From: Nitrospira defluvii
GTDB lineage: Bacteria > Nitrospirota > Nitrospiria > Nitrospirales > Nitrospiraceae
Assembly (NCBI GenBank): GCA_000196815.1
Contig: FP929003.1
Span: 1,759,501-1,823,500, forward strand
Direction: 5' to 3'
DNA: 64,000 nucleotides
The notes under the pieces are model-generated. The model searched no databases, was not told the DNA's origin, and was given only the letters and a program-made list of their open reading frames with translations. The position numbers were made by a program, and so were the translations under genes. How positions within the stretch are numbered: position 1 is the stretch's first letter; each line of letters begins with the position of its first letter. Shown here piece by piece: positions 29,902 through 40,958 of this stretch.

Positions 29902-32046
29902 ATGAGCAACGGCGACCTCAATTGGATAGCGAACTTCATTTGGGGCATCGCGGACGACGTTCTCCGCGATCTCTATGTGCGGGGCAAGTATCGGGATGTC
30001 ATCCTGCCGATGACGGTCTTGCGCCGCCTGGATGCCGTGCTGGAGCCGACGAAGCAGGCCGTGCTCGACATGAAGGTCTCGTTGGACAAGGCCAAGATCG
30101 TTCATCAGGATCAAGCGCTCAGGCAGGCAGCAGGCCAAGCCTTCTACAACACGTCTAAGTTCACGCTGAAAGATCTCAAGGCGCGATCGAGCCAGCAGCA
30201 GCTCAGAGCTGACTTTGAAGCTTACCTGGATGGCTTTTCACCCAATGTGCAGGACATTCTCGAAAAGTTCGAGTTCCGCAATCAGATCCCTCGCCTCTCC
30301 AAGGCCGATGCGCTCGGCACGCTGATCAATAAGTTCCTGTCGCCGGATATCAATCTCAGTCCCAATCCCGTGAAGAACAACGACGGATCGATGAAGCATC
30401 CGGGCCTCGACAATCATGCGATGGGTACGGTCTTCGAAGAACTGGTCCGGCGGTTCAACGAAGAAAACAACGAAGAAGCCGGAGAACACTGGACGCCACG
30501 CGATGCCGTCAAACTCATGGCCAGGCTCATCTTTCTTCCCATCGCCGATCAGATCCAGTCGGGCACGTACTTGCTGTATGACGGGGCCTGTGGAACCGGC
30601 GGCATGCTCACGGTGGCGGAAGAAACGCTGCAACAACTAGCGGCGGAACATAGGAAGAAAGTCGCCACCCATCTCTATGGCCAAGAGATCAACGCAGAAA
30701 CCTATGCGATCGCTAAGGCCGATCTGTTGCTGAAAGGCGAAGGAGACGCAGCGGATAACATCGTCGGCGGGCCGGAGTATTCCACCCTGGCGAACGATGC
30801 CTTCCGGTCCCGTGAGTTCGACTTCATGCTGTCGAATCCGCCCTACGGAAAGAGCTGGAAAAGCGATCTCGAACGATTAGGAGGCAAAGAGGGCATTAAA
30901 GATCCGCGCTTTATGATTCAGCACGCGGGGGAGGCGGAATATTCGCTGATCACCAGATCCAGCGACGGCCAGATGCTGTTCCTGGCCAACATGCTCTCGA
31001 AGATGAAGCACAAGACGAAGCTCGGCAGCCGGATTGCCGAGGTGCACAACGGTTCCTCGCTCTTTACGGGGGATGCAGGCCAAGGCGAGAGCAACATCCG
31101 CCGGTGGATCATCGAGAACGATTGGCTCGAAGCCATCGTCGCCTTGCCGTTGAACATGTTCTACAACACCGGCATCGCGACCTATATCTGGGTGCTCACC
31201 AATAGAAAGCCCGCGCATCGCCAGGGGAAGGTGCAACTCATCGATGCCACACAATGGTTCAAGCCGTTGCGCAAGAACCTCGGTAAGAAGAACTGCGAAC
31301 TGTCGGACGAGGACATCCGGCGTATCTGCGACACCTTCATCGACTTCAAAGAATCTGAACAGTCGAAGATATTTCCCAACGAGGCGTTCGGCTATTGGAA
31401 AGTGACGGTCGAACGGCCGCTGCGTCTGCGTGTGGACTTGGACCCGAAATCTCTCAGTGCATTCCGCGCTGCCTGTGTGGATGAAGACGAAGAGCCGTTG
31501 GCCAATGTTGTGGAGCGTGTTGCTGCTTCACTCGGTCCCGGCCCACACCTCAGTTTCAACACCTTCATGGAAGCAGTGGAGGCAGACGCGAACGAGCACG
31601 GCGTCAAGTTAACCGCCGCACGGAAGAAACTCCTCAAGGACCGACTTGCGAAGCGGGATGAAAAAGCAGCCGAAATTATCGGCAAGACTTACAAGCCAGG
31701 CAAAGTCAAGCCGGACCCACTACGCGGGCTCTTCGAGGCTACCGTCGACGGCAAACCGTGTGTGGTGGAATATGAGCCCGATACCGAGCTTCGCGATACG
31801 GAACAGATTCCGCTGCTGGAAGAAGGCGGCATCGCAGCCTTCATCCGGAGAGAAGTCCTGCCGCATGTGCCGGATGCCTGGTATGTGCCCGAAAGCGTCA
31901 AGACCGGCTATGAGATCAGTTTCACTCGATACTTCTACAAGCCGCAGCCGCTGCGGTCCCTTGAAGCAATCAGAGCCGACATCCTGGCGTTGGAGAAGGA
32001 AACCGAGGGGCTGCTGGGTGAAATTATTGGTGGAAGCGGGCGATGA
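29902..32046 (+). CDS. hsdM: Type I restriction-modification methyltransferase subunit HsdM
   Basis: A 714-residue N6-adenine DNA methyltransferase. The N-terminal helical domain (~1-150) begins NWIANFIWGIADDVLRDLY, then EHWTPRDAVKLMARLI leads into SAM-binding YDGACGTGGML (226-236) and the catalytic motif NPPYGKSW (312-319). The C-terminal helical tail is used to dock HsdS. It starts the operon hsdM-DUF1016-hsdS-hsdR and overlaps the next gene by four bases (ATGA). The catalytic motif is intact, so modification is expected to be functional. Confidence 0.96.
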   Translation: MSNGDLNWIANFIWGIADDVLRDLYVRGKYRDVILPMTVLRRLDAVLEPTKQAVLDMKVSLDKAKIVHQDQALRQAAGQAFYNTSKFTLKDLKARSSQQQLRADFEAYLDGFSPNVQDILEKFEFRNQIPRLSKADALGTLINKFLSPDINLSPNPVKNNDGSMKHPGLDNHAMGTVFEELVRRFNEENNEEAGEHWTPRDAVKLMARLIFLPIADQIQSGTYLLYDGACGTGGMLTVAEETLQQLAAEHRKKVATHLYGQEINAETYAIAKADLLLKGEGDAADNIVGGPEYSTLANDAFRSREFDFMLSNPPYGKSWKSDLERLGGKEGIKDPRFMIQHAGEAEYSLITRSSDGQMLFLANMLSKMKHKTKLGSRIAEVHNGSSLFTGDAGQGESNIRRWIIENDWLEAIVALPLNMFYNTGIATYIWVLTNRKPAHRQGKVQLIDATQWFKPLRKNLGKKNCELSDEDIRRICDTFIDFKESEQSKIFPNEAFGYWKVTVERPLRLRVDLDPKSLSAFRAACVDEDEEPLANVVERVAASLGPGPHLSFNTFMEAVEADANEHGVKLTAARKKLLKDRLAKRDEKAAEIIGKTYKPGKVKPDPLRGLFEATVDGKPCVVEYEPDTELRDTEQIPLLEEGGIAAFIRREVLPHVPDAWYVPESVKTGYEISFTRYFYKPQPLRSLEAIRADILALEKETEGLLGEIIGGSGR

Positions 32047-33164
32047 GCAAGGGGAGAAGCCTCTCAACATCCAAGCCCCCGACCAGGGCAGCTCCGGCGA
32101 AAACGCTGTTGGCCGAGGTGCGGCAGTTCGTTCTGGAAGCGCGGCGGCAGACTGCTCGGTTGGTCGATGCGGGTCTCACGCTCTTGTACTGGCAGATCGG
32201 CGACCGCATACGTCGGGAAATCCTCAGCGAGAAACGGGCCGGGTATGGTGAACGGATCGTGTCCGCGCTGGGGGAGCAGTTGGAGTCTGAGTTCGGCCGT
32301 GGCTTCTCCGAGAAATCTCTGCGCCATATGATCCGATTCGCTGAAACTTTCCCCGATATGCCAATTGTCTCGACGCTGTCGAGACAATTGGCCTGGAGTC
32401 ACTTCATGGAGATCATCTATCTCAAGAACGATCTTCAACGGAGCTTCTATGCCGAATTGTGTCGCATGGAGCGCTGGAGTGTGCGGTTGCTGCGGTCTCG
32501 TATCCAGTCCATGCTCTATGAGCGGACAGCCCTCTCGAAGAAACCCGAACACCTCATCGAGAAGGAGCTGAAGGCGCTCCGGGATGAAGACCGGTTGACC
32601 CCGGATCTCGTGTTCCGCGACCCCTACGTGCTCGACTTCCTGGGACTCAGGGATACCTACAGCGAGAAGGATCTGGAGAGTGCGCTGCTGCGGGAGATCG
32701 AATCGTTCCTGCTCGAACTCGGTCATGGGTTCGCGTTCGTCGAACGACAGAAGCGCATTACCCTCGACGGAGACGATTACTATATCGATCTGCTTTTCTA
32801 CCATCGGCGGCTCAGGCGATTGGTGGTCATCGAGCTCAAGATCGGCGACTTCAAACCGGCCGATGCCGGACAGATTGAACTCTACCTGCGCTGGCTCGAC
32901 CGCCATGAACGACAGGAAGGGGAAGAGAAGCCTCTCGGCCTTATTCTCTGCGCCGGCAAGAAGCGCGAGACGGTCGAGGTGCTCGAACTTGAACCGCGCG
33001 GCATCCACGTTGCCGAGTACCTGACCGAACTCCCCCCGCGGGAATTGCTCGAAAAGCGGCTCCACGACGCCGTCGCACGCGCCCGACTACGGATCGAGGA
33101 GCGGGTGGCGCAGGAGGCCACGGCAAAGTCGGGTCCCGATCGCGGGAAGAGGAGCGGCAAGTGA
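32043..33164 (+). CDS. DUF1016/YhcG-family PDDEXK nuclease
   Basis: A 373-residue protein with the DUF1016 N-terminal domain (TLLYWQIGDRIRREIL, YGERIVSALGEQLESEFG, FSEKSLRHMIRFAETFPD) and a C-terminal PDDEXK nuclease domain: FAFVERQKRITLDGDDYYIDLLFYHR, then LVVIELKIGDFKP, giving the D-(E)xK core. A highly basic tail ends at 373. It overlaps hsdM and hsdS by four bases each, so it is translated as part of the type I system. The role there is unknown; it is an extra nuclease alongside HsdR. Confidence 0.92.
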   Translation: MSKGRSLSTSKPPTRAAPAKTLLAEVRQFVLEARRQTARLVDAGLTLLYWQIGDRIRREILSEKRAGYGERIVSALGEQLESEFGRGFSEKSLRHMIRFAETFPDMPIVSTLSRQLAWSHFMEIIYLKNDLQRSFYAELCRMERWSVRLLRSRIQSMLYERTALSKKPEHLIEKELKALRDEDRLTPDLVFRDPYVLDFLGLRDTYSEKDLESALLREIESFLLELGHGFAFVERQKRITLDGDDYYIDLLFYHRRLRRLVVIELKIGDFKPADAGQIELYLRWLDRHERQEGEEKPLGLILCAGKKRETVEVLELEPRGIHVAEYLTELPPRELLEKRLHDAVARARLRIEERVAQEATAKSGPDRGKRSGK

Positions 33165-34519
33165 TCGACACACTTACGCCCTATCCGGCCTACAAGGACT
33201 CCGGCGTGCCGTGGTTGGGAGAGGTGCCTTTGACGTGGAGCATCTCTCGCAACGGTGGCCTGTTCATCCAACGAAACGAGACGGGATTTGCACATCTTCC
33301 GATCTTGGAGGTTTCACTCAAGACCGGCGTCCGGGTTCGAAACCTCGATGGAAGCGGCCGTAAGCAGATAATGTCTGATCGCGACAAGTATAAGCGAGCT
33401 CGCAAGGACGATCTTGCCTACAACATGATGCGGATGTGGCAGGGTGCGATAGGAATCGCACCGACCGACGGGCTTGTGAGTCCCGCATACGTCGTCGCTC
33501 GGCCGCTGAAGGGGGTCGAACCGAGGTTCTTCCTGAATCTGTTCCGGACCGATGCCTACATGGGTGAGGTCGACAAGTTCTCTCATGGGATCGTAAAGGA
33601 CAGGAACAGGCTCTACTGGGAAGGGTTTAAGCAGATGCCTTCACCGGTTCCTCCGCCAGACGAACAAGCCGCCATTGTCCGCTTTATCGACCACGCGGAT
33701 CGGCGGATCAAATGCTACATCCGCGCCAAGCAGAAGCTGATTAAGCTGCTGGAGGAGCAGAAGCAGGCCATCATCCACCGCGCCGTTACCCGTGGCCTCG
33801 ATCCCAATGTGCGCCTCAAACCATCCGGCGTCGAGTGGTTGGGCGATGTGCCGGAGCATTGGGAGATGCGGCGGCTTAAGACTCTCTGCAGAATGAGAAG
33901 CGGGGATGGCATCACAGCAATGGCAATCGAGCCTGTGGGTGACTACCCGGTCTACGGTGGGAATGGCGTGAGAGGCTATACATCGAACTTCACTCACGAC
34001 GGTGACTTCGTCCTGATCGGACGACAGGGTGCGCTCTGCGGAAATGTGCATCTTGCGCGCGGTCGCTTTTGGGCTTCGGAACACGCCGTTGTTGCTTCTC
34101 TTAGCTCTGGTTACATCCTTGAGTGGTTCGCTGCGATCTTGATGGTGATGAATCTGAATCAGTATTCGATTGCCGCCGCCCAGCCTGGGCTCGCGGTCGA
34201 GCGTGTTCTGAACCTCTGGTTACCAGTACCTCCCGCGGACGACCAAAAGCGCATTGCAACTCAAATCGAGGATGAGACATCCGATATCAACCAGGTAGTC
34301 GGCCGCGCACGACGCGAAATCGAATTTCTCATCGAATACCGCACCCGCCTGATCGCCGACGTGGTGACCGGCAAGCGCGATGTGCGAGAGGCAGCGGGCA
34401 AATTACCGGATGAGACCGACGAGTCTGAAATGCTCGATGAGGCAGATGTGCCTGTGGAGGCTGACGACAGTGAAGGGGGTGCCAACCTCGATGCGGTTAC
34501 CGATGAGGTCGAGGCGTGA
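33161..34519 (+). CDS. hsdS: Type I restriction-modification specificity subunit HsdS
   Basis: A 452-residue protein with two target-recognition domains separated by conserved helical regions. The first starts YKDSGVPWLGEVPLTW, the second at ~220 with LKPSGVEWLGDVPEHW, a tandem duplication of the same motif. Each TRD is followed by a long helix (EQAAIVRFIDHADRRIKCYI and DQKRIATQIEDETSDINQVV). The C-terminal ~55 residues are very acidic. GTG start at 33161 overlaps the upstream stop. The two TRDs set a bipartite recognition site that cannot be read here. Confidence 0.95.
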   Translation: MIDTLTPYPAYKDSGVPWLGEVPLTWSISRNGGLFIQRNETGFAHLPILEVSLKTGVRVRNLDGSGRKQIMSDRDKYKRARKDDLAYNMMRMWQGAIGIAPTDGLVSPAYVVARPLKGVEPRFFLNLFRTDAYMGEVDKFSHGIVKDRNRLYWEGFKQMPSPVPPPDEQAAIVRFIDHADRRIKCYIRAKQKLIKLLEEQKQAIIHRAVTRGLDPNVRLKPSGVEWLGDVPEHWEMRRLKTLCRMRSGDGITAMAIEPVGDYPVYGGNGVRGYTSNFTHDGDFVLIGRQGALCGNVHLARGRFWASEHAVVASLSSGYILEWFAAILMVMNLNQYSIAAAQPGLAVERVLNLWLPVPPADDQKRIATQIEDETSDINQVVGRARREIEFLIEYRTRLIADVVTGKRDVREAAGKLPDETDESEMLDEADVPVEADDSEGGANLDAVTDEVEA

Positions 34520-34723
34520 GCACTGATTGCCCGGCCGACTATCTCGTGGGCCTCGTTCGTGAGCTCTGTAGGGATTGAGCCACAGAACCTGGCTGTAGCC
34601 TCACGGCTTATTCGGGAGGCGGTCGACGCTGGCCTGATAGTGCCCTACGATCCCGATGCTGCTCCTAAACTCATGCGATATGTGCCGATTTGGGCTGCTC
34701 CAGACCGGAATCGCGGTACTTGA
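34516..34723 (+). pseudogene. Remnant of an AlbA_2/Schlafen-domain ATP-binding protein (COG2865-like)
   Basis: A 69-codon scar in two frames. The first part, GTG at 34516 overlapping the hsdS stop, encodes MSTDCPADYLVGLVRELCR, which resembles the N-terminus of AlbA_2-type ATP-binding proteins. After an internal join near 34571 the other frame gives GIEPQNLAVASRLIREAVDA and then GLIVPYDPDAAPKLMRYVPIWA in two stretches, the typical C-terminal end of such proteins. The large middle (more than 350 codons in family members) is missing. A nearly intact start-to-stop hybrid with a frameshift points to an internal deletion between hsdS and hsdR. Confidence 0.8.
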
Positions 34724-34825
34724 TGGATGTTTGATTAGAATGAGGTTTGAGGAGCAAATGGGAGTGGCCGACCTCTTTAAAATCAATTGGTAAGAAGGTG
34801 CCTGGTACTTGATTAGAGGCTTCTT

Positions 34826-37800
34826 GTGAAGACCGATACCAGCGAGAAGGGCCTGGAGAGTCTTATTGTCGAGGCCATGGTGGGTCGTGCCTCGGGCGAA
34901 GCGCCGCCGACAGGCGAGGGCATTAGCCTCATTCGGGAGCGATACGGCGGCACCGGATGGATTCTCGGCCGAGCTGAAGATTACGACCGTGAGTTCTGTG
35001 TCGACCTTCCCCAGCTCCGTATCTTTCTTCAGGCTACCCAGCCGAAAATAGCCGAGGCGCTGGATCTCGACAACGACAGCCCGACTCGACGCAGGTTCCT
35101 GGCCCGGCTCCAAGGAGAGATCTCGAAGCGCGGCGTGGTCGATGTGCTCCGGCATGGGCTCAAGGATGGGCAGCACCATGTCGAGGTGTTCTATGAGACA
35201 CCTTCGCCCGGCAATGAGAAAGCCGCTGAGCTTCATGCCGAGAACCGCTTCACGGTCACGCGTCAGCTTCGCTACAGCCGCGACGAGACCCAACGAGCCC
35301 TCGATCTCGCCCTCTTCATCAACGGCCTTCCGATCTCGACGTTCGAGCTGAAGAACAGTCTGACCAAGCAGACGGTCGAGGATGCGGTCGAGCAGTATAA
35401 GCGCGACCGCGATCCGCGCGAAAAGCTCTTTGAGTTCGGCCGATGCATGGTGCATTTCGCCTTAGACGACCACGAAGTACGGTTCTGCACGCATCTGAAG
35501 GGGAAAGGGTCGTGGTTTCTTCCGTTCAATCAGGGATGGAACGATGGGGCGGGGAATCCCCCGAACCCGCACGGCCTCAAGACGGATTATCTGTGGCGGC
35601 GGATTCTCACCCGCTCGGGACTGACCGACATTCTGGAAAACTACGCGCAAATCGTCGAAGAGAAGCATGAGAAAACGGGCCGAAAGAAATCGGTGCAGAT
35701 TTGGCCGCGCTTTCATCAGCTTGACGTGGTTCGCAAGCTCCTTGCTGATGCCCGAGAACATGGGGTGGGGCGACGCTATTTGATCCAGCACTCGGCCGGC
35801 AGCGGCAAGTCCAATTCGATCGCCTGGCTGGGGCATCAACTCATCGGATTACGTCAGCAGGACGCATCCCTGTTCGATTCCATCATCGTGGTCACCGACC
35901 GGCGTATCCTCGACAAGCAAATCCGGGACACGATCAAACAGTTTGCCCAGGTAGGGGCGACGGTCGGCCATGCGGAGCACTCCGGGGATTTGCGCAAGTT
36001 CATCTCCGAGGGAAAGAAGATCATCATCTCTACGGTCCAGAAGTTCCCGTTCATTCTGGAGGAAATCGGCAGCGAGCAGCGCGGTAGAGCGTTCGCCATC
36101 ATCATCGACGAAGCCCATTCGAGCCAGGGCGGCAAGACCTCGGCGGCGCTCAGTATGGCCCTTTCCACGGCCGGCGCCGAAGAGGAGGAGGAAACCCTCG
36201 AAGATACGATCAACCGGATCATGGAGGCCAAGAAGCTGCTGCCCAACGCGAGCTACTTCGCCTTCACTGCCACGCCCAAAAACAAGACGTTGGAGATCTT
36301 CGGCGAGCCACTGTCTCCTGATGCCGAAGGGAAGGTCCGCCATCGCCCCTTCCACAGCTACACAATGAAGCAGGCCATTCAGGAGGGCTTCATCCTGGAC
36401 GTGCTGAAGCACTATACACCGGTCGAGAGCTATTACAAGCTCGTCAAAACGGTGGAGGGCGATCCGGAGTTCGATACGAAGCGGGCCAAGAAGAAACTCC
36501 GTCGGTATGTAGAAAGTCACGACCATGCGATCCGGTTGAAAGCCGAAATCATGGTGGATCACTTCCACGAGCAGGTTCTTGCACTGAACAAGATCGGTGG
36601 ACAGGCACGCGCCATGGTGGTCACTAATGGAATCGATCGTGCCGTCCAGTACCTCCATTCCTTCCGCGATTATCTGACGGAGCGGAAGAGCCCCCATAAG
36701 CCCATTGTGGCCTTCTCGGGCGAACATGAGTACAGCGGGGCAAAAGTCACCGAGGCTTCGCTCAACGGTTTTCCTTCGAGCCAGATTGCCGACAAGATTC
36801 AGGAGGACCCCTACCGCTTTCTGATCTGTGCCGACAAGTTTCAGACGGGCTATGACGAGCCGCTCCTGCACACGATGTACGTGGACAAGATCCTCTCCGG
36901 GATCAAGGCGGTGCAGGCGCTCTCGCGCCTCAACCGCGCCCATCCGCAAAAGCATGATGTCTTTGTCCTCGATTTCATGAATGACAGTGGCACTATTCAA
37001 GAGGCATTCGCCGATTACTACCGGACCACCATTCTCTCGGAGGAAACCGACCCCAACAAGCTTCATGACCTCAAGGCCGCACTCGACGGGTACCAGCTGT
37101 ATGCTCAGACCCAGATCGATCAGCTTGTGGCCCTGTATCTTGGTGGCGCCGATCGGGACAAGCTCGATCCGATTTTGGACGCATGTGTTGCTGTGTACAA
37201 AGACCAGCTCAACGAGGACGGACAGGTGGACTTCAAAGGAAAGGCCAAGGCGTTTCTCCGGGCCTATGGATTTCTGTCAGCGATCCTGCCCTATACGAAC
37301 AAAGATTGGGAAACGCTCTCGATCTTTCTCAACTTCCTTGTGCCCAAGCTGCCGGCACCCAAGGAAGAAGATTTGTCTAAGGGCATTCTGGACGCGATCG
37401 ACATGGACAGTTATCGCGTTGAGAAGAAGGCGGCGATGAAGATTCAGTTGCCCGACGAGAATGCGGCGATCGAGCCGGTTCCCATGACCGGCGGAGGGAG
37501 CAAGGCTGAACCGGAGTTGGATCGGCTTTCCAACATCCTGAGGACGTTTAACGACCTGTTCGGCAACATTCCCTGGACCGATGCCGACCGCGTGCACAAG
37601 CTGATCACGGAAGACATTCCCAGCCGTGTGGCGGCTGACACGGCGTACCAAAATGCGAAGCAGAACTCGGACAAGCAAAATGCCCGTATCGAGCATGACA
37701 AGGCGCTTGCACGTGTGATGGCGGCTGTTTTGAAAGACGACACGGAGCTGTTTAAGCAGTTCATGGACAATGACTCGTTCAAACGTTGGCTGACCGACAC

Positions 37801-37849
37801 GGTATTTCGGATCACGTATACAGATGTCCCCCGCGTGCCGCCGCTATAG
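34826..37849 (+). CDS. hsdR: Type I restriction endonuclease subunit HsdR
   Basis: A 1007-residue motor-nuclease. The N-terminal nuclease has the (D)-ExK-type motif FELKN (173-177) in INGLPISTFELKNSLTKQ; the SF2 translocase has Walker A HSAGSGKSNS (~322-331), the DEAH-like IIIDEAHSSQGGK, FTATPKNKT, and the later helicase motifs DKFQTGYDEP and ALSRLNR. AGAGG six bases upstream supports GTG at 34826. It is the last gene of the hsd operon but is separated from hsdS by ~306 bases that hold the gene scar. All key motifs are intact. Confidence 0.95.
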   Translation: MKTDTSEKGLESLIVEAMVGRASGEAPPTGEGISLIRERYGGTGWILGRAEDYDREFCVDLPQLRIFLQATQPKIAEALDLDNDSPTRRRFLARLQGEISKRGVVDVLRHGLKDGQHHVEVFYETPSPGNEKAAELHAENRFTVTRQLRYSRDETQRALDLALFINGLPISTFELKNSLTKQTVEDAVEQYKRDRDPREKLFEFGRCMVHFALDDHEVRFCTHLKGKGSWFLPFNQGWNDGAGNPPNPHGLKTDYLWRRILTRSGLTDILENYAQIVEEKHEKTGRKKSVQIWPRFHQLDVVRKLLADAREHGVGRRYLIQHSAGSGKSNSIAWLGHQLIGLRQQDASLFDSIIVVTDRRILDKQIRDTIKQFAQVGATVGHAEHSGDLRKFISEGKKIIISTVQKFPFILEEIGSEQRGRAFAIIIDEAHSSQGGKTSAALSMALSTAGAEEEEETLEDTINRIMEAKKLLPNASYFAFTATPKNKTLEIFGEPLSPDAEGKVRHRPFHSYTMKQAIQEGFILDVLKHYTPVESYYKLVKTVEGDPEFDTKRAKKKLRRYVESHDHAIRLKAEIMVDHFHEQVLALNKIGGQARAMVVTNGIDRAVQYLHSFRDYLTERKSPHKPIVAFSGEHEYSGAKVTEASLNGFPSSQIADKIQEDPYRFLICADKFQTGYDEPLLHTMYVDKILSGIKAVQALSRLNRAHPQKHDVFVLDFMNDSGTIQEAFADYYRTTILSEETDPNKLHDLKAALDGYQLYAQTQIDQLVALYLGGADRDKLDPILDACVAVYKDQLNEDGQVDFKGKAKAFLRAYGFLSAILPYTNKDWETLSIFLNFLVPKLPAPKEEDLSKGILDAIDMDSYRVEKKAAMKIQLPDENAAIEPVPMTGGGSKAEPELDRLSNILRTFNDLFGNIPWTDADRVHKLITEDIPSRVAADTAYQNAKQNSDKQNARIEHDKALARVMAAVLKDDTELFKQFMDNDSFKRWLTDTVFRITYTDVPRVPPL

Positions 37850-38020: not shown

Positions 38021-38608
38021 TCACGTCCCGCACTTCTCCCCGCTAGAAGCCTCGCACGAACAATCCAGACAACCATGGACGGAGCAGGTGCCGCAGGCCT
38101 GTTCGATCCGGCGACGAAGCGCGGCCCTGGCTCGATGCACGCGGACGGCCGCATTCTCGGCGGTGATGCCTGACTGTTGCGCCAGGTCTTTCAGTTTGCC
38201 TTCTTCCAGATCCACGATCTGCAGGGCTTCGCGATATTCGGGCTTGAGCGTCTCCAGCAGGCCCGATACACATTGGCAGATCTCCTGCCGTAGTTCCGCG
38301 TCTGGCTCCTGAACATCCGGAAATTCTCGTCCCCAGGCTTCCATCGCTCGCGCGGCGGTGGAACGTTGCCGGTAATGATCGATCACGGCATTGCGGAGCA
38401 CTCGATAGAACCAGGCGACGACCTTTTCGTCCTGCACGTCGCCCCCGCGCTCCAGTCCACGGGTAAAGGCCGCTTGCAGAATGTCTTCCGCCACGGCTCT
38501 CGATTCCACTCGCCGTTCAAGGAATGCCAGGAACTCCCGGTGTCCGTTCACCAGCTGCGCAATGGCCTCCGGCGAGAGAGCTGTCGAGGGCTTCGATTCG
38601 AGGTTCAT
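38021..38608 (-). CDS. CorE-like ECF sigma factor with C-terminal Cys-rich domain
   Basis: A 195-residue ECF sigma factor. Region 2 (VAEDILQAAFTRGLERG, VVAWFYRVLRNAVIDHYRQR) and region 4 (LKPEYREALQIVDLEEGKLK and the HTH IT-AENAAVRVHRARAALRRRI) are clear. Two features match CorE-type metal-sensing sigmas: a CxC motif in the inter-region linker (EICQCV, Cys111 and Cys113) and a C-terminal Cys cluster (ACGTCSVHGCLDCSCEA, then EKC) with six cysteines. CorE proteins sense copper directly, without an anti-sigma factor, and none is encoded next to this gene. It is divergent from the metallothionein-like gene. Confidence 0.88.
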   Translation of the reverse strand: MNLESKPSTALSPEAIAQLVNGHREFLAFLERRVESRAVAEDILQAAFTRGLERGGDVQDEKVVAWFYRVLRNAVIDHYRQRSTAARAMEAWGREFPDVQEPDAELRQEICQCVSGLLETLKPEYREALQIVDLEEGKLKDLAQQSGITAENAAVRVHRARAALRRRIEQACGTCSVHGCLDCSCEASSGEKCGT

Positions 38609-38714
38609 GGAAGCAGCTTACCAAACTGTGTGCAGAACTGTAAGGTTTCCGGTGCCCCTCCGTCAGCCTCTGTGACGACGCAATGACGCGCCGGCATGAC
38701 AAAGGAGACCGACC

Positions 38715-38876
38715 ATGGCTGACATCAAAAAAAACACCGCGCAGAAGATTGTCAAGACAGGCTGTTGCGGAACCTGCGATTGCGCTTCCTGCTCCTGCGG
38801 GTGCCAGGCAAACGCCTGTCGCTGCGCGCCTATCAATTGCCAATGTGGTTGTCGCAAGCGAACCGCCGGTCGATAG
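38715..38876 (+). CDS. Metallothionein-like small Cys-rich protein (53 residues)
   Basis: This short gene was found by reading the sequence. The ATG at 38715 is preceded by AAAGGAG at seven bases, and the product has 12 cysteines in 53 residues: basic N-terminus MADIKKNTAQKIVK, then TGCCGTCDCASCSCGC, and CRC and NCQCGC, ending in a basic tail. The clustered CxC pattern is that of metal-thiolate proteins. The motif CGTC-DC-SC also appears in the divergent sigma factor's C-terminus, so both may bind the same metal. A hairpin follows the stop. Confidence 0.8.
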   Translation: MADIKKNTAQKIVKTGCCGTCDCASCSCGCQANACRCAPINCQCGCRKRTAGR

Positions 38877-39271: not shown

Positions 39272-40072
39272 ATGAAGCGGACGCTGGGCAATCTTGAACG
39301 TGCCTTGTTTGCCTATGCGCAGATGCGCGGCCTGAGGACTCTGAGAACCGGGGACCTCACGGTGGCGCTTGGCATTTCGTGTACACAGGAAAGCAAGTTA
39401 TTCACTCGCCTCTCGAAGGGCCGCATGATCGCGCAGGTTCGGAGAGGCCTCTACCTCATTCCACAGCGTCTGCCCTTGGGTGGCACCTGGTCGCCGAGTG
39501 AAATCCTCGCACTGAATACGCTCATCGGTGAGCAGAAGGGGCGTTATCAAATCTGCGGACCGAATGCCTTCAATCGTTATGGGTATGACGAACAGGTTCC
39601 CAACCGCGTCTATGCCTATAACAATCGAATGTTTGGGGAGCGAATGGTCGGACCCATTCAACTCACGCTTATTAAAGTTGCCGACAAACGGCTGGGCGCG
39701 ACGGAAGAGAGCGTGACGCCGGACGGCGAACAGGGAGTATATTCCTCCAGAGCGCGCACCTTGCTCGATGGTGTCTATGATTGGTCTCGCTTCGGCTCAC
39801 TGCCGCGGGCCTATGAATGGATTCGAACCGATCTGAAGAAGAACCGGGTGTCTGAGCGAGAGCTTGTGCGGGTGACCCTGAGGTACGGAGATGTCGGCAC
39901 GATCAGACGCATGGGGTATTTGCTTGAACGAGAATCCGCCGATGCGATGTTGTTAAGAAAGCTTGAACGAACGTTGAAGCCGACGCGCAGCCTCATTCCG
40001 TGGATCCCGTCGAAACCCAAGCGGGGCGTCATCAACCGGCGCTGGGGGGTTGTAGACAATGAATGTCCCTGA
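39272..40072 (+). CDS. AbiEi-type antitoxin / transcriptional regulator
   Basis: A 266-residue protein with an N-terminal winged-helix region (MRGLRTLRTGDLTVALGI, VRRGLYLIPQRLP) and the AbiEi C-terminal domain (YQICGPNAFNRYGYDEQVPN, then SRARTLLDGVYDWSRFGSLP). In type IV AbiE systems this protein neutralises the toxin and represses the promoter. The start ATG at 39272 follows the palindromic region. It overlaps the toxin gene by 14 bases, implying coupled translation. Confidence 0.88.
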   Translation: MKRTLGNLERALFAYAQMRGLRTLRTGDLTVALGISCTQESKLFTRLSKGRMIAQVRRGLYLIPQRLPLGGTWSPSEILALNTLIGEQKGRYQICGPNAFNRYGYDEQVPNRVYAYNNRMFGERMVGPIQLTLIKVADKRLGATEESVTPDGEQGVYSSRARTLLDGVYDWSRFGSLPRAYEWIRTDLKKNRVSERELVRVTLRYGDVGTIRRMGYLLERESADAMLLRKLERTLKPTRSLIPWIPSKPKRGVINRRWGVVDNECP

Positions 40073-40958
40073 CGGGCGGCCCCTCCAGCATCATCGAGAT
40101 GCTGCGTTCTTTACCGAAGCAATTGCGTATACGGCCGCACGGTTCGGATTCGTTCCGGCTCTGGTCGAGAAGGACTATTTTTGTAGCGTCGTCCTGGCTC
40201 ATCTTTCCAAGGTCTCACAGCAGAGCCTCGTGTTCAAAGGAGGCACGTGTCTCACGAAAGTGCATGCGGGGTTCTACCGGCTCAGCGAAGATCTCGACTT
40301 CGTCATCCCAATCGCCAGGGATGCACGACGGGTCGAACGAAGCCGTGAGATCGTTCCGGTGAGACAGGCCCTGAATAACCTGTTCCAGACCATACCAGAA
40401 ATTCAACAACAAGATGCGCTCACCGGGGCGAACAGTTCGATGCAATATATCGGCACGCTGAGCTATGAGTCTCTGGTTTTGAAGCGACGAGAAACAATCA
40501 AGATTGAAATCAGTCTGCGCGAACCACTTTTGGAACCAGCCGTCATCCATGAGGCCGCGACTATGGTGGTGAATCCACTGTCCCAGCAGCCATTGGTGCC
40601 CTTTGTCCGGTTCCCATGCCTCTCCAGGCAAGAAGCGTTTGCTGAAAAATTTCGAGCTGCTATGACCCGCCGTGAGCCGGCCATCCGAGATTATTTCGAT
40701 ATCGACTATGCGGTGAAGAATGGGGTGATTGATCCGTATGACGCATCCTGGGTTCAGATGGTGCGGGAGAAAATTCAGGTGCAGGGTCATAATGCGATCG
40801 ATCTTTCTTTCCAACGGCTGAGCGTTTTACGGAATCAAGTGGAGCCGCTTTTGAAACCAGTTCTTCGGATCAAGGAGTTTCAAGCATTCGATCTCGATCG
40901 CGCCTTCACAGTTGTCGCCGATGTTGCAGCGAAGGTGGCGTGTCCACAATTAGGATAA
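40059..40958 (+). CDS. AbiEii nucleotidyltransferase toxin
   Basis: A 299-residue nucleotidyltransferase of the AbiEii/AbiGii family. The catalytic region reads LVFKGGTCLTKVHAGFYRLSEDLDFVIP, matching the KGG...SxDxD signature of the polymerase-beta-like fold. Downstream motifs are YESLVLKRRETIKIEISLREP and REPAIRDYFDIDYAVKNG. Family toxins transfer nucleotides to RNA and inhibit translation or growth, giving abortive infection. It is encoded directly after and overlapping the antitoxin. Confidence 0.9.
   Translation: MNVPDGRPLQHHRDAAFFTEAIAYTAARFGFVPALVEKDYFCSVVLAHLSKVSQQSLVFKGGTCLTKVHAGFYRLSEDLDFVIPIARDARRVERSREIVPVRQALNNLFQTIPEIQQQDALTGANSSMQYIGTLSYESLVLKRRETIKIEISLREPLLEPAVIHEAATMVVNPLSQQPLVPFVRFPCLSRQEAFAEKFRAAMTRREPAIRDYFDIDYAVKNGVIDPYDASWVQMVREKIQVQGHNAIDLSFQRLSVLRNQVEPLLKPVLRIKEFQAFDLDRAFTVVADVAAKVACPQLG

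Follow-up and report, generated by a model that had tools for sequence, protein, structure and literature searches.

Does the divergent gene pair at positions 38021 to 38876 form a unit in which a metal-sensing sigma factor controls its small cysteine-rich neighbor? The pair lies in a 64,000-nucleotide stretch of Nitrospira defluvii DNA (contig FP929003.1), hereafter called the window. A sequence-only reading had proposed that the sigma factor is of the copper-sensing CorE type, and that the adjoining metallothionein-like gene is its target. We examined the family features of both genes, their joint occurrence in other genomes and the region between them.

Organization of the locus

The sigma factor gene (38021–38608, minus strand) and the small open reading frame (ORF; 38715–38876, plus strand) diverge from a gap of 106 bases, and these coordinates, the EICQCV motif of the sigma factor and the 53 codons and 12 cysteines of the small ORF are all present as the sequence-only reading had given them. 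The features are as follows, with their basis in parentheses.

38021..38608, minus strand: CorE-like ECF sigma factor, 195 aa (Pfam Sigma70_r2 and Sigma70_r4_2 above cut-off; cysteine alignment with nine relatives)
38270..38278, minus strand: linker CxC, Cys111-x-Cys113 (invariant in a 10-row alignment; CxC in 55 of 55 sigma factors collected by motif)
38030..38095, minus strand: C-terminal cysteine cluster, Cys172, 175, 180, 183, 185 and 193 (172, 175, 183 and 185 invariant in the 10-row alignment)
38639..38664, plus strand: predicted promoter of the small gene, TGTAAG-N16-CGTC, with –35 TGTAA and –10 CGTC (invariance and the loci of relatives)
38672..38697, plus strand: conserved leader hairpin of the small gene (pairing in 21 sequences with two covarying pairs; weak in the window's own sequence)
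38702..38707, plus strand: ribosome-binding site AAGGAG of the small gene (alignment conservation)
38715..38876, plus strand: metallothionein-like protein, 53 aa, 12 cysteines (cysteines invariant in 20 distinct sequences; mostly synonymous change)

Genes for a calcineurin-like phosphoesterase and an AAA ATPase, which we read as SbcD/SbcC-like, lie next to the pair in all 14 loci compared (the window included; one short locus, L015, was left out). On the sigma side of the unit (32043–37849), the window carries a YhcG/DUF1016 nuclease gene and the S and R subunits of a type I restriction system, and on the other side (39272–40958) an AbiEii toxin-like gene whose partner has no Pfam family. Because the locus comparison showed that the sigma-side neighbors vary between genomes, the unit may be located at a hot spot for defense genes. 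The sigma gene itself has no clear ribosome-binding site (38609–38625), and TTTGGTAAGCTGC, directly 5' of its ATG, is largely conserved and may be the promoter of a leaderless message.

Family features of the sigma factor

On its sequence features, the sigma factor belongs to a known kind, the CorE-like factors (ECF sigma factors with a cysteine-rich domain, formerly ECF44). Pfam regions 2 and 4_2 and NCBIfam TIGR02937 were all matched above cut-off, the linker between the two regions contains the CxC motif, and the tail cysteines 172, 175, 180, 183 and 185 have a spacing identical to that of residues 181, 184, 189, 192 and 194 in CorE of Myxococcus xanthus. Both hallmarks that had been claimed are present, and the comparison with CorE that the sequence-only reading had called for places the protein, on these features, with CorE. 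The CorE paper (PMC3107203) gives the tail cysteines as 181, 184, 189, 192, 194 and 206, of which 181, 184, 192 and 194 are kept in all 21 CorE-type sigma factors found there; Cys189, the main residue for copper activation, is kept in 11 of those 21. The last tail cysteine differs in position, lying 8 residues past the fifth in the window sigma factor versus 12 in CorE. A review (PMC8999054) terms the linker CxC essential.

We aligned the window sigma factor with nine relatives (five from Nitrospirota genomes and four from plasmids) and found that both linker cysteines and tail cysteines 172, 175, 183 and 185 were invariant. A wider set of 55 sigma factors, gathered by the tail motif, all carried the linker CxC, and 51 of them retained the counterpart of CorE Cys189 (Cys180 here), including all 18 of the clade linked to the small gene (the mt-linked clade). 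The sixth tail cysteine occurred in 16 of these 18, versus none of the 37 others. In a tree of 56 rows, for which the program warned of long branches, the 18 mt-linked sigma factors formed one side of a single branch (100/100).

We also considered membership in SigZ (TIGR02959), which was the best NCBIfam match among the narrow sigma models, and rejected it, as the score of 100 bits was far under the cut-off of 168.65 bits; the SigZ-like sigma factor that this genome does have is encoded elsewhere (L002), and its tail differs. None of the seven neighboring proteins scanned, one of which had no family at all, matched an anti-sigma family. CorE is reported to need no anti-sigma factor (PMC3107203).

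Searches of the organism's own genome (a single contig of 4,317,083 bases) yielded four ECF matches, among which the window sigma factor was the sole one with at least four C-terminal cysteines, and a profile search gave a single match at E up to 1e-30. The CorE-type sigma factors listed in 2011 (PMC3107203) include NIDE1902 of Ca. N. defluvii. Since no other ECF match has such a cysteine-rich tail and there is one strong profile match only, the window sigma factor is probably NIDE1902 and hence already listed; within the open-access papers searched, the tags NIDE1900–1904 were found in the CorE paper alone.

The small gene and its linkage to the sigma factor

The small ORF encodes a very cysteine-rich protein of 53 aa with CxC and CC motifs, metallothionein-like in sequence. 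All 12 cysteines were invariant in 20 distinct whole sequences, and 60% of single-base codon differences were synonymous versus 22% expected for random changes (the pairs compared are not independent). Because it always stands beside the sigma ortholog, retains 12 invariant cysteines and changes mostly synonymously, the ORF is, on this comparative evidence, a real gene.

No Pfam or NCBIfam family matched the protein at E up to 1. The gene was absent from the plasmid collection (BLAST with the low-complexity filter on), viral contigs gave no confirmed match, and the sole match in the PDB was at chance level (E 4.7). Two further weak matches were found in the organism's own genome (E 0.18 and 0.44).

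A sigma factor of at least 85% identity was found in 20 of the 61 genomes searched, all in the organism's own genus, which contributes 29 of the 61. The small ORF diverged from the sigma ortholog in every one of the 20 (19 whole and one cut by a contig end), so that the same divergent pair, which the sequence-only reading had suggested looking for elsewhere, is present wherever this ortholog was found. In two of the carriers (G010 and G012, draft genomes of many contigs), the sigma match was in two pieces, as by a frameshift or an assembly error. A collection of named genomes, mostly the same genomes as the 20 carriers, contained 14 close loci with the small ORF whole in 13 and cut in one; 13 were labeled Nitrospira or Nitrospiraceae, and one, labeled Bryobacterales (L012), is perhaps mis-binned. 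Among 295 Nitrospirota genomes, the small gene occurred in 12 of the 16 from the organism's own genus. Exactly these 12 also carry the sigma ortholog, and the remaining four had neither; outside the genus there was a single weak partial match (G321, 26 residues within a 167-aa frame). When 30 related-sigma loci were searched with 1.5-kb flanks, the 12-cysteine protein was found in seven, i.e. the mt-linked ones. Other cysteine-rich frames beside related sigma genes (L078, L093, L097, L102 and L103) look like chance. Because the whole locus is syntenic (14 of 14 loci), the linkage between the two genes is weak evidence when taken alone.

The sequence-only reading had further noted that a thiol pattern in the small protein echoes the C-terminus of the sigma factor, and this part did not hold. 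The peptide motif CGTC, which was picked post hoc, appeared in 504 of 20,000 shuffles with the cysteines fixed. We likewise rejected a common origin of the small protein and the sigma tail, as their best ungapped identity was reached by 2142 of 5000 shuffles and is not significant.

A predicted promoter shared with the loci of related sigma factors

We compared 21 distinct intergenic sequences and found TGTAA-N17-CGTC, oriented into the small gene, in all of them. The shared elements were, in order, ACTGTAA, one base (G in all rows but one), GTTT, CGTC at 17 bases past TGTAA and, in most, AAGGAG. The long form of the promoter occurred once in the organism's own genome, at the window locus; with up to three mismatches allowed, three further places appeared, each at three mismatches. 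In the 61 relatives, GTAAGGTTT-N10..14-CGTC gave 32 matches. Of the 21 with a 12-base spacer, 19 were beside the small gene (the exceptions being G003:C20 and G060:C52), and none of the 11 at other spacings were. G027, which is among the 20 carriers of the unit, has TGTAATGTTT instead and so lacks an exact match to GTAAGGTTT.

The same core and spacing were present in all 35 loci with related sigma factors outside the mt-linked clade (36 sites in total); these loci were our selection among the related-sigma matches, and four of them are those where TGTAAG-N16-CGTC was first noticed. At 35 other spacers (5–40), the same loci contained 1.1 sites on average and four at most, versus 36 at spacer 17. 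The sigma gene was located by its tail motif in 33 of the 35 loci (L136 and L137 were not placed by the motif), and in 31 of these 33 the site was –4 to 254 bases past the sigma stop codon and read the same way as the sigma gene. The L135 site was 1459 bases on from the sigma gene and directly after a second related-sigma match, and that of L129 was divergent from the sigma gene, as in the window. L129 (G189:C1:453000-464000) has a window-like layout, its sigma gene diverging from what by eye is a YHS-type ATPase-like gene with the promoter between them. Pfam assigned the genes downstream of the sites to ATPases with YHS/HMBD (L120) and HMA (L111) domains, which we label P1B-type and copper-type, to a cupredoxin (L108) and to no family (L134); those at the remaining loci were judged by eye only.

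Since an invariant promoter faces the small gene and is shared with related-sigma loci, the small gene is a predicted direct target. The constant linkage of the pair (20 of 20 genomes) and the match in core and spacing (21 of 21 intergenic sequences and 35 of 35 loci) suggest that the sigma factor directly switches it on, which upholds, as a prediction, the target proposed by the sequence-only reading. No TGTAA-N17-CGTC site in the window faces the sigma gene, and autoregulation through this promoter is therefore unlikely. The regions upstream of related sigma genes gave no match to the candidate promoter patterns.

We then scored sites in the organism's own genome. The bare core TGTAA-N17-CGTC occurred 13 times there, fewer than the 37 sites of a backward control, and is thus by itself no evidence. 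With a matrix built from the 36 sites of the related-sigma loci (mt-linked clade excluded), the highest of the 13 scores was 33.8 at L151, followed by the window site at 21.1 and the next at 12.7. Compared with the training sites, whose lowest score was 8.3 and whose median was 35.5, the window site ranks low, and 10.4–18.1 was obtained for four further sites of the mt-linked clade. Because its sites score low on this matrix, that clade may have a promoter variant of its own. The L151 site (own genome, C1, 3666979–3667004, minus strand) precedes a DUF4396 gene, which has a DNA counterpart in L113, and adjoins what is left of a CorE-like sigma gene, which is interrupted by an in-frame stop and lacks parts; we read the site as a promoter that outlived its own sigma factor. 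The window sigma factor may be the only working one of its kind in this genome and could serve both promoters.

Plasmids also carried TGTAA-N17-CGTC sites: one in a Phenylobacterium stretch, 1.7 kb from a related sigma gene, two after a related sigma gene in Ca. Manganitrophus, and three and four near related sigma genes in Sulfitobacter and Roseovarius, respectively. Some of these fall inside genes, and the 10 plasmid sites score –4.0 to 25.0, mostly low, on the matrix of Nitrospirota sites. Two Roseobacter-group plasmids (L060:4776 and L061:4824, both minus strand) contain GTAAGGTTT-N12-CGTC, the form found at the window promoter, in the region from which a related sigma gene and an EamA-type transporter gene diverge. 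Separately, a GTAAGGTTTTGTG-N8-TGCGTC-like site is shared by G010:C733:5183, G019:C5:93705 and G020:C9:384396; other ECF sigma matches lie about 2 kb away, and the site may belong to a different ECF system.

A conserved hairpin in the leader

Between the –10 element and the ribosome-binding site, the leader of the small gene can form a hairpin in which 97.4% of cells were paired across 21 sequences, which are related to one another (one of 500 shuffles was as high). The covariation score of 0.306 was reached by none of 500 shuffles, and there were two covarying pairs, one of them G-C in 11, A-U in 8 and G-U in 2 of the sequences; slid versions of the hairpin scored far lower. Neither the pairs that change on both sides (257 of 500 shuffles) nor the pair types (391 of 500) exceeded the shuffles in number. 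When six leaders were folded singly, z ranged from –4.5 to +0.4, the window's own being the weakest and no better than its shuffles. A covarying leader hairpin is thus moderately supported by the alignment; that it acts as a 5' stabilizing stem is a plain guess.

Proposed mechanism and alternative explanations

We consider it probable that the pair is a compact metal-response unit, in which a self-sensing CorE-like sigma factor drives the divergent metallothionein-like gene, with copper as the most likely metal. The interpretation of the sequence-only reading is largely retained in this form, with the CorE-like sigma factor and its predicted target kept and the echo between thiol motifs dropped. 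We infer that the sigma factor would sense metal itself, through the C-terminal cysteine cluster and the linker CxC, without an anti-sigma factor. Metal binding to tail and linker cysteines as the first step of activation is reported for CorE (PMC3107203). The metal-loaded factor would join RNA polymerase, bind DNA and fire TGTAAG-N16-CGTC, the 53-aa, 12-cysteine gene would be transcribed from a hairpin-bearing leader, and its product would buffer metal in the cytoplasm, which should let the sigma factor fall silent again.

The same unit might instead answer cadmium or zinc, or thiol or oxidative stress, with the small protein buffering zinc or cadmium or serving as a thiol reserve. CorE2 is described as answering cadmium and zinc (PMC8999054), and no copper gene was found among the seven window neighbors scanned. 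Copper is nonetheless favored, because the counterpart of CorE Cys189 is present and relatives adjoin copper-type ATPase or cupredoxin genes at the loci tested, and on this evidence we regard a different signal as rather unlikely. The small protein could also be mainly a regulator, i.e. a sigma-controlled feedback inhibitor that strips metal from the sigma factor or binds it and contributes little to total buffering, which would suit the one-to-one linkage of the two genes and the very few credible promoters in the organism's genome. However, its cysteine motif shows no significant resemblance to the tail of the sigma factor, no anti-sigma family was matched, and CorE works without an anti-sigma factor (PMC3107203), which makes this role improbable. 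Finally, the two genes might be mere neighbors, with the sigma factor serving other promoters and something else transcribing the small gene from a conserved intergenic region. The synteny of all 14 loci compared leaves linkage alone as weak evidence, and the DUF4396 site (L151) outscores that of the small gene; yet the promoter core is unchanged although the small gene has diverged at synonymous sites, and all 35 related-sigma loci have sites with this core and spacing, so that we give mere proximity very little credence.

Relation to known systems

The window sigma factor resembles CorE in having sigma2 and sigma4 regions, the linker CxC and the first five tail spacings, in having no anti-sigma factor found beside it and in that its relatives adjoin copper genes. 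The targets differ: those of CorE are genes for multicopper oxidases and copper ATPases (PMC3107203), whereas the predicted neighboring target here is metallothionein-like. A small cysteine-rich protein made from a metal-responsive promoter is also known from SmtA/SmtB, NmtA/AzuR, BmtA/BxmR and MymT/RicR. In the literature searched, the controllers named for bacterial metallothioneins are repressors (RicR, which governs MymT, SmtB, BxmR and AzuR), whereas the window unit would have an activating sigma factor. SmtA, NmtA, BmtA and MymT moreover share no Pfam match with the window's small protein. Our search of an open-access library found no sigma-controlled metallothionein and no Nitrospira metallothionein with a sigma factor.

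We tentatively raise a more specific possibility, about which we are doubtful: a new genus-level metallothionein family with a dedicated metal-sensing sigma factor that serves one or two promoters in all. The metallothionein would, in addition, reset this sigma factor by withdrawing metal from it, and the conserved leader hairpin would stabilize the message or provide further control.

If the metal-response unit is as proposed, a nitrifier group would control a metallothionein with a sigma factor that metal activates, and not with a repressor, and the TGTAA-N17-CGTC rule would allow the regulons of Nitrospirota CorE-like sigma factors to be predicted from sequence. With only two genes, the unit could be rebuilt in a laboratory host, where it could reveal how a sigma factor reads metal directly.
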